64,000 nt of DNA, from contig JAACQG010000011.1 in NCBI GenBank assembly GCA_009995045.1, forward strand, positions 16,596 through 80,595. Direction: 5' to 3'. Positions 424 through 36,718 of the stretch are shown one piece after another. The position numbers and the translations under genes are program-made. A model generated the notes under the pieces. It saw only the letters and a list, made by a program, of their open reading frames with translations. It had not been told where the DNA came from and made no database searches. The number at the start of each line of letters is the position of its first letter. Positions within the stretch are counted from its first letter, which is position 1. This DNA is from Alphaproteobacteria bacterium (lineage in GTDB: Bacteria > Pseudomonadota > Alphaproteobacteria > Micavibrionales > Micavibrionaceae).

Positions 424-1659
<1,236 letters not shown>

Positions 1660-14182: not shown

Positions 14183-14794
14183 TTACTCAGTGATTTCTTT
14201 TGCTTTGTCCATAAGCTCTTCGCCAGAAGCTGGCTCAGAGTCTGTTGCTTCTTCAGCAGCGTCTTTAGCATCTTCTTTTGCTTCTTCCGCGGCGTTTGCA
14301 GCTTCTTCAGCAGGTGATGTTGTAACGGCATCTTTTGCTTCGGCTGCGGCTTCTTTTGCGCTTTCGATGGCTTTGCTTACTGTTGCGCCAGTTGCTTCGG
14401 CGGCATCAGATGCGGCTTCGGTTGTTGCGTCAGCAGCGTCTTTCGCCATTTCAGCAGCGTCATGGCCAACTTCTACAGCTGTTTCTTTTGTTGCTTCGGC
14501 GGCGTCAGCGGCAGTTTCTTTTGTTTCTTCATATGCACCAGCAGCAGCTTCAGTTGCGTTTGCGGACGTTGCGGAGATTGTTTCGCCAGCATCATTTGCC
14601 GCTTCTTTTGCTGAATTTGTGATGTTTGCGATACCTTCGGAAACGCCTTCAGGGGCACTTTCATTTCCTGCGGCTGGCTCGATGTAAGAGACGTCGCTTG
14701 TTCCGGAGATGTTGTTATAGATTGCGAAGATGGCAACAAGGCCAGCAGCCAAAACTACACCTGAATATACGATTGATTTAGTAAAGTTGTTCAT
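14183..14794 (-). CDS. membrane-anchored Ala/Glu-rich repetitive helix protein (LEA-like)
   Basis: A 203-residue protein with one N-terminal membrane helix (VVLAAGLVAIFAIYNNI, residues 13-29), then about 165 residues composed almost only of A, E, K, D, T and S. Imperfect 11-residue-like units recur (AADAAEATKET, AAEMAKDAADAT, AAEEAKEDAKDAA), giving a long amphipathic helix or coiled coil like LEA or apolipoprotein-type proteins. The tail is EELMDKAKEITE. A GAGAGGAA ribosome site precedes the ATG, and TTGACA occurs at the right distance upstream (complement of 14871-14876) with a poor -10. It occupies the place where ubiB is often found, between ubiE and coaC. Function unknown; envelope or desiccation protection is a guess from composition. 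Confidence 0.75.
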   Translation of the reverse strand: MNNFTKSIVYSGVVLAAGLVAIFAIYNNISGTSDVSYIEPAAGNESAPEGVSEGIANITNSAKEAANDAGETISATSANATEAAAGAYEETKETAADAAEATKETAVEVGHDAAEMAKDAADATTEAASDAAEATGATVSKAIESAKEAAAEAKDAVTTSPAEEAANAAEEAKEDAKDAAEEATDSEPASGEELMDKAKEITE

Positions 14795-35659: not shown

Positions 35660-36526
35660 TTATCCGTGGGTGAGCGCGGTGTAAGCTTCGGCTAGCTGCG
35701 CTGTAATCGGGCCCGGTGTGAACTTCATGTCATCGATTTTACCAACCGGTGTGATTTCCGCTGCTGATCCAGTGAGGAAAATCTCTTCGAAACTTTCCAA
35801 TTCTTCGGGTTTAATGCGGCGTTCGTTGACGGTAATGCCCATGTTTTGAGCAATTGAGATCACTGTTTGGCGGGTTAGGCCGTTTAAAAATCTATCTGCA
35901 ATCGGGGTGTGGATTGCGCCATCTTTAATCAGGAATATGTTCGCGCCCGTGCTTTCGGCGATGAAGCCTTCGTGATCAAGCATGAGGGCATCGGTATATC
36001 CGGCTTTTTTCACTTCGAGTTTAACCATGCAGCTTAGATTATAGAGCGACGCGGTTTTTGACGCGGTTGGGGCGCAGTTGGGGTTTGGTTTGCGCCAATC
36101 TGTACTTTTGAGGGAGATGCCGACTTTACGCACTTCGGGGTCGAAATAGCTGCCCCAATCCCAAGCGGCAACAGCCATGTGGGTTTTTGTGCCTTCAACG
36201 TCGATGCCCATTTGCTCGGCGCCGCGCCATGCGGCTGCGCGGATGTAGCAATTTTCGAGGTTGTTGGCTTTGATGACCTCGTATTTGATTTCGTCGATTT
36301 GTTCGGCGGTGTAATGCATATCCATGTGGATGATGTCGGCGGAGTTCAATAGGCGCTTTGAATGCTCGTTGCATTTAAAGATTTTGCCGTTATAAGCGCG
36401 TTCACCTTCAAAGACTTGTGTTCCGTAATGGAGGGCATGGGTAAGATAATGCACTTTAGCTTCGCGCCAAGGGAGCATTTCGCCATCCATCCAGATAAAG
36501 CCGTCACGATCGTCAAATGGTATCAT
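35660..36526 (-). CDS. ilvE: branched-chain amino acid aminotransferase
   Basis: A 288-residue PLP enzyme of fold type IV that makes and breaks Val, Leu and Ile. The N-terminus FIWMDGEMLPWREAKVHYLTHALHYGTQVFEGERAY is standard. The PLP-binding Lys lies in APTASKTASLYN near residue 154, and ALMLDHEGFIAESTGANIFLIKDG gives the PLP-phosphate and Glu contacts. Its end faces the CDF gene, six bases apart. Its ATG is embedded in the outer arm of palindromic repeat copy B at 36524-36626, with the weak ribosome site AAGAAG about eight bases upstream and inside the same palindrome. Its place beside an OmpR/EnvZ-type pair is common in alphaproteobacteria. Confidence 0.94.
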   Translation of the reverse strand: MIPFDDRDGFIWMDGEMLPWREAKVHYLTHALHYGTQVFEGERAYNGKIFKCNEHSKRLLNSADIIHMDMHYTAEQIDEIKYEVIKANNLENCYIRAAAWRGAEQMGIDVEGTKTHMAVAAWDWGSYFDPEVRKVGISLKSTDWRKPNPNCAPTASKTASLYNLSCMVKLEVKKAGYTDALMLDHEGFIAESTGANIFLIKDGAIHTPIADRFLNGLTRQTVISIAQNMGITVNERRIKPEELESFEEIFLTGSAAEITPVGKIDDMKFTPGPITAQLAEAYTALTHG

Positions 36527-36626
36527 TTTCGTCTTCTTTCACTTTTCACCGCGTTACTGCGCGTCTAAAGTATTAAATACTTGTCGTCGCTTGTGCCTAG
36601 TGAAAAGGCAAAATGAGACGAAAATG
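36524..36626. repeat. palindromic element, copy B, overlapping the ilvE start codon
   Basis: The second copy of the nested palindrome. The outer arm is a perfect 11-bp pair (CATTTTCGTCT at 36524-36534, AGACGAAAATG at 36616-36626) that begins exactly at the ilvE start codon. The inner arm is an 8-bp pair (CTTTTCAC at 36542-36549, GTGAAAAG at 36600-36607). The core at 36550-36599 matches copy A at about 44 of 50 positions and contains AAGTATT/AATACTT. The arms differ in sequence from copy A but keep the same pairing and the same relation to a minus-strand ATG. Confidence 0.78.
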
Positions 36627-36718
36627 CGCAATAATAAGTTGTTCTGTTTATTATTAACTCGTTGTTGTAAAACGAAGGGATAGATTAGGTTAACAGGTTA
36701 AGAGTTGTAAATATAATC

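Follow-up and report, generated by a model that had tools for sequence, protein, structure and literature searches.

A putatively mobile, MITE-like hairpin family with variable but paired arms in Micavibrio-like Alphaproteobacteria, one branch of which may supply a leader and ribosome-binding site

Introduction

Small mobile repeats of bacteria usually sit where they do little harm, and Rickettsia palindromic elements (RPEs) are known for in-frame insertion within ORFs. Several families of short structured repeats resemble the element studied here, as far as the accessible parts of the papers cited go. ERIC, RUP and Correia/NEMIS are dispersed MITE-like repeats of about 100-200 bp with TA ends, long stem-loop transcripts and filled and empty sites (PMC2229807), and Correia elements are reported to bind RNase III and to be either cleaved or protected (PMC2649163). 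CGTC and GTAG REPs are palindromes of Alphaproteobacteria, including Micavibrio aeruginosavorus, in which CGTC-1 REPs are present; they measure 20-40 bp, the CGTC type having an 8-9 bp stem and a 4-base tag, and GTAG ends often supply a TAG stop codon (PMC3733652). The pneumococcal BOX, RUP and SPRITE repeats are interspersed, structured, thought to affect the expression of neighbouring genes and over-represented between convergent genes (PMC3049150), and RPEs are palindromes of small alphaproteobacterial genomes (PMC10969869). The genome of M. aeruginosavorus has been described as containing few repeats and no mobile elements (PMC3189940).

The window analysed here, a stretch of 64,000 nucleotides from an alphaproteobacterial contig (GenBank assembly GCA_009995045.1, contig JAACQG010000011.1), carries two copies (A and B) of a dispersed hairpin that is like ERIC, RUP and Correia/NEMIS in size, long stem-loop, a possible TA at the ends and the existence of filled and empty sites. 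Unlike their fixed terminal repeat, the arms of this family vary with pairing kept, a comparison made by description; moreover, its right end lies at gene boundaries, one branch has a built-in Shine-Dalgarno sequence, and no partner transposase was found among the enzyme types searched. It is palindromic like the alphaproteobacterial REPs, and some of its ends seem, by eye, to supply a TAG stop codon in the same way. It differs from REPs in its several helices, its length of about 110 nt and the lack of a Y1 link at the loci searched and, judged by form rather than by consensus sequences, it is not a 20-40 bp palindrome with a GTAG or CGTC tag. It shares interspersion, structure and a possible effect on neighbouring genes with BOX, RUP and SPRITE, but its Shine-Dalgarno branch stands before start codons; the likeness to RPEs, by description, lies in the palindrome and the type of host genome. 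The accessible text of PMC2229807, PMC10969869 and PMC3049150 makes no mention of variable-but-paired arms, right-end placement or a Shine-Dalgarno branch. Literature on MITEs that carry start codons or ribosome-binding sites is scarce in the sources searched, most subscription papers lying beyond them, and earlier publication is possible.

Results

A covariance model, R1, was built from five copies of the own genome (G000). The features at the two window loci are as follows.

36524..36626, minus (the sense strand of the element and the strand of ilvE): copy B, whole hairpin, with an R1 match of 87.2 bits at 36541-36609
36524..36534, minus: right (3') outer arm of copy B with the ilvE start codon inside, from sequence
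36616..36626, minus: left (5') outer arm of copy B, from sequence
36533..36539, minus: Shine-Dalgarno-like AAAGAAG in the right arm of copy B, mostly paired in the predicted fold, from sequence and fold
36542..36549, minus: right inner arm of copy B, GTGAAAAG on the minus strand and CTTTTCAC on the plus strand
36600..36607, minus: left inner arm of copy B, CTTTTCAC on the minus strand and GTGAAAAG on the plus strand
36550..36599, minus: core of copy B, whose apical hairpin occupies 36568-36582
35660..36526, minus: ilvE, branched-chain amino acid aminotransferase (NF005726, 434.7 bits, cut-off 396)
36638..36671, minus: candidate ilvE promoter region upstream of copy B, beginning with a TTTACA box
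about 1549..1656, minus: copy A, oriented like copy B and standing ahead of the gene at 424-1551
424-1551, minus: thioredoxin-reductase-like gene, whose best ncbifam match falls short of the cut-off
1557..1562, minus: Shine-Dalgarno-like AAAGGA in the right arm of copy A
1569..1578, minus: right inner arm of copy A
1629..1638, minus: left inner arm of copy A

The two copies share 43 of 50 alignment columns of the core, close to the figure of about 44 of 50 in the original prediction. What it said of the inner and outer arms of copy B and of the ilvE ATG (36526-36524, minus strand) also proved correct, and the arms of copy B differ from those of copy A yet pair. Its statement that the outer arm stops exactly at the G of the ATG holds for copy B, in which the pairing runs through the ATG, but fails for copy A, in which it ends at the A (1551-1558 pairs with 1649-1656). 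Predicted folding energies are -36.2 kcal/mol (z -4.9) for copy B and -42.2 kcal/mol (z -5.7) for copy A, and none of 200 shuffles of either copy folded as well. A separate feature of the window, at 14380-14618, is a set of three diverged 53-nt direct repeats.

The unit is an imperfect hairpin of about 110 nt, consisting of an outer stem, often ending in TAGTC/GACTA, an inner stem, a core of short helices separated by purine-rich internal loops, and an apical hairpin. Beyond A and B, G000 has a copy in front of accD, another in front of purU and a third flanked by the 3' ends of two ORFs that face each other; R1 gave 11 matches in this genome at E <= 0.05 and 20 at E <= 10. Copies were found in seven of the eight genus genomes and in 62 of 105 family genomes (E <= 0.001). 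The family is probably Micavibrio-like, judging by its closest named ilvE relatives, which are MAGs of Alphaproteobacteria, one of them labelled Micavibrio. A class-wide draw, searched at E <= 0.0001 with stricter filters, gave matches in six of 385 genomes, four of them from the own family and the two others being G453 (11 matches) and G215 (one match). G453 belongs to a different alphaproteobacterial family; its cores are arranged almost in tandem, at spacings of about 86-105 bp (L360, L364, L367), in one case directly before a tRNA gene. At the gathering score, Rfam had no match in the window and only tRNA at 20 element loci; a loose threshold yielded four weak matches, all below gathering scores.

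For the covariation analysis, 65 genus copies were aligned with 93 from 86 further stretches and two rows were dropped, leaving 156 copies (effective number 104), of which those from beyond the genus are the top of the score list and not a random sample. Both sides had changed at 8 of 15 pairs in the five copies and at all 15 in the 65 copies, in which 88.5% of cells pair vs 66.6% in shuffles. In the 156 copies the top pairs by APC-corrected mutual information are mostly nested pairs of one end-to-end hairpin; they cover the outer stem, the inner stem, the two-base core helices 16-56, 17-55 and 20-51, 21-50, and the apical stem, and the 60 top pairs also include neighbouring columns and a few non-pairing ones. 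Arms fit their own partner best: inner arms pair with it at 93% of positions, vs 69% when matched with arms of other copies in that genome, and outer arms at 81% vs 62.5%. Columns 15 and 57 form a non-standard pair that seems to covary (C-A 151, A-G 4, A-A 1). A second state suspected by eye, with the left outer arm pairing with the core, has no pair among the 60 top covarying ones, and the impression that pairing extends further outward in copy B than in any other copy did not hold on checking, L257 having the longest under the rule applied.

The 33 column pairs listed contain 319 cases of G-U and 104 of A-C, and because G-U exceeds A-C, folding of the sense strand of the element is favoured. 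This excess leans on column pair 28-44, which holds 92 of the G-U cases; the core helices show no excess (27 vs 22), and a folded single DNA strand would also be expected to produce one.

Elements shared by descent bear on the same question. In 26 cases, elements from two genomes flank the same gene; at the paired sites that differ between them, both sides had changed with pairing kept in 146 cases and one side with pairing kept in 68, while pairing was broken in one element in 111 and absent from both in 25. Of the 25 element pairs that could be set against a background, 13 resemble each other more closely than do about 94% or more of the cross pairs formed between their genomes, and about half of the 26 pairs may be separate insertions. 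Of the 68 double-changed sites in the 13 descent pairs, 49 form a pair in both elements, vs a mean of 5.6 of 29 (maximum 18) when the 3' columns are re-dealt; sites changed on one side with pairing kept number 42 vs 30.1, sites broken in one element 49 vs 88.8, and sites unpaired in both 13 vs 67.1. Since double-changed sites are kept and broken sites are fewer than after re-dealing, pairing is maintained, imperfectly, after insertion. An element common to G000, G005 and G043 stands at accD, and others are shared at ruvC and further genes. Pairing of the ilvE sense strand appears to be selected, which was one of the two accounts that the original prediction offered; it draws support from the covariation in the 156 copies, the compensatory changes in elements shared by descent and the excess of G-U over A-C on one strand.

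The second account was that the element copies flanking DNA in inverted form when it inserts, so that one arm should pre-exist at sites without it. Of 31 copies in G008, G009, G093 and G094, 15 were selected manually, almost all of them adjacent to start codons, and six genomes were searched for their right flanks; for 14 loci the joined flanks could be aligned with an empty site (16 alignments), the presence of an arm being judged by eye. The right arm had no counterpart in the empty sites of 11 of the 14 loci, and both arms therefore arrive with the element, against the second account. The other three (grxD, atpB and thyA) are ambiguous, the empty leader resembling the arm, and one of the two empty sites of grxD is a second copy of the gene in the same genome, G094. 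At obgE, cheR, rpoN, hslV, hisA, purF, zapA-like and thyA the left flank aligns, with gaps (the largest of 14 bases, at rpoN), up to a junction within about 10 bases of the ATG. At fabF the filled site has lost the leader seen in the empty one, and there is little alignment between the left flanks; at L090 the left flank aligns poorly; at gpsA the element lies about 20 bases further upstream. At thrC (L228, in G008), comparison with the empty site places the element within the first codons, and an in-frame ATG is present in its right arm. The names obgE, hslV, hisA, purF, thyA, atpB, grxD, thrC, gpsA and ruvC pass the ncbifam cut-off; fabF passes one in L041 and that of the related subfamily in L256, matches for cheR and rpoN are below cut-off, and zapA-like is a putative name read by eye from a sequence with no ncbifam match. 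The ilvE element was found only in G000, with no counterpart in 29 other family orthologues and five named ones, a count in which three of the five named are probably identical with G007, G030 and G031, and in which G001-G006 were not among the genomes drawn. The ilvE empty sites are too diverged to place the insertion point of copy B.

The placement of the element relative to genes, with boundaries taken from a simple longest-ORF rule, is asymmetric. In 96 of 156 copies a gene boundary falls 9-24 nt from the right end, whereas for the left end this holds in 23 of 154; at start codons the counts are 71 of 111 for the right end and 2 of 51 for the left, and at stop codons 25 of 45 and 21 of 103. 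The predicted relation to an ATG is thus real but partial, given that the right end also abuts stop codons of opposite-strand genes and, in three stretches, the 5' ends of tRNA genes at 15-26 nt. In L284 (1001-1272), two elements about 200 bp apart flank a tRNA-Leu gene. The strands of the left and right neighbours are ++ in 76 copies, -+ in 35, +- in 27 and -- in 16, with no left gene called in two; the right-hand gene is co-oriented in 111 of the 156 and on the opposite strand in 45, and both neighbours run antisense to the element in 16 copies. In one branch the right arm contains AAAAGGAAG or similar, and the copies stand in sense orientation just before start codons, so that the arm of the element replaces the leader of the gene. 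Of the copies with AGGA or GGAG in the right arm, 48 of 57 stand beside a start, vs 23 of 99 for the rest (Fisher P 7e-14), and the tandem orientation stands at 39:1 in AGGA copies and 37:15 in the others.

The nearest relative of a copy lies in the same genome in 52 of 156 cases (shuffled mean 7.8) and in the same genus in 100 of 156 (shuffled 34.9). Copies at loci with unlike flanks (L230, L242) reach 98% identity, and such near-identity at unrelated loci shows, by sequence comparison, that the family is mobile. At about 110 nt and dispersed, it has the form of a MITE (short, below 200 bp); instead of conserved terminal inverted repeats, exact TAGTC/GACTA ends occur in 37 of 156 copies and the arms vary with pairing kept. 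TA flanks most of the 37 canonical copies, where it is indistinguishable from the stem, and at obgE the junction in the empty sites lacks a TA. No mobilising enzyme was found in searches for Y1 in 105 genomes and for DDE_3 in 14. Y1 genes are present in 35 of the 105 family genomes, including the copy-rich G008, G009 and G014; the equally searched, copy-rich G005, G006, G043, G079 and G093 gave no Y1 match, and no element was found within about 1.5 kb on either side of 30 Y1 loci. The only Y1 match listed in G000 (C23, 11123-11326) is weak and contains several stop codons. An IS630-type MITE was considered as a candidate and is weakened: DDE_3 occurs in one of 14 genomes (G068), and its two loci there have no element nearby.

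Discussion

We consider it likely that copy B belongs to a MITE-like palindromic, putatively non-coding mobile family of about 110 bp, one branch of which supplies a leader and a ribosome-binding site. Sequence comparison shows that copies are scattered through genomes, that the element brings both of its arms along, that covariation keeps the sense-strand fold and that the right end is set at gene boundaries. In the genes of the Shine-Dalgarno branch, ilvE included, ribosomes would start from the arm of the element. The hairpin would hold the Shine-Dalgarno sequence, with its GG in an internal loop, and in copy B also the AUG; when closed, it might lower or condition translation until opened, for example by RNase III cleavage or by passing ribosomes. 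In 47 leader copies the AGGA is predicted to be half unpaired at 10-45 C, by eye with the GG in an internal loop and the A's in a stem, and the AUG of copy B is predicted to be fully paired. In 14 of 18 ilvE orthologues a TTTACA box, possibly a promoter, stands 60-157 nt ahead of the gene, and in G000 it lies upstream of the element, so that the element is probably transcribed within the ilvE 5' UTR; by eye, a similar box lies upstream of the element at accD. We propose, tentatively, that the Shine-Dalgarno branch is a mobile translation-initiation cassette, which would prefer to integrate just before start codons, displace the native leader and put unrelated housekeeping genes under one common ribosome-binding site controlled by structure (e.g. 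released by RNase III).

It is also possible, if somewhat doubtful, that the element is purely selfish and has no host role, its pairing being kept as the folded-strand substrate of movement and the start-codon copies being the least harmful. Its dispersal and patchy presence, the restriction of the ilvE copy to one of the orthologues examined and the unrelated housekeeping functions of the named flanked genes agree with this, as does the opposite strand of the right-hand gene in 43 of 100 copies without AGGA. However, compensatory changes go on in elements shared by descent, and tolerance alone poorly explains a Shine-Dalgarno branch that stands before starts in 48 of 57 cases and in tandem at 39:1. 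A true cis-regulatory RNA, that is, a riboswitch-like leader staying with its genes, is unlikely: the sense-strand fold, the start-codon placement and the sharing at accD, ruvC and other genes would suit it, but it should always lie 5' of its gene in sense, whereas the 45 right-hand genes on the other strand and the 16 copies antisense to both neighbours do not fit. The named genes have no common pathway, the ilvE copy is confined to G000 among the orthologues examined, and Rfam had no match besides tRNA. Even less probable is that the element is a REP mobilised by a RAYT (Y1) transposase, in spite of the palindromic, dispersed form and the Y1 genes of a third of the family genomes, some of them copy-rich, given that none of the 30 Y1 loci holds an element and five copy-rich genomes lack a Y1 match. 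Inverted copying of the flanking gene leader by template switching upon insertion is hardly credible, since right arms are alike at unrelated loci, are missing by eye from most of the empty sites and often show one-sided changes to G-U, even though arms differ between loci and pair, and the empty leaders of grxD, atpB and thyA resemble the right arm.

To return to the mobile family with a leader-supplying branch, if the proposed cassette is real, selfish DNA could rewire the translation of many genes at once, through placement at start codons, a Shine-Dalgarno sequence of its own and a compensated stem. The filled and empty sites in sister species make this idea of translational rewiring testable.
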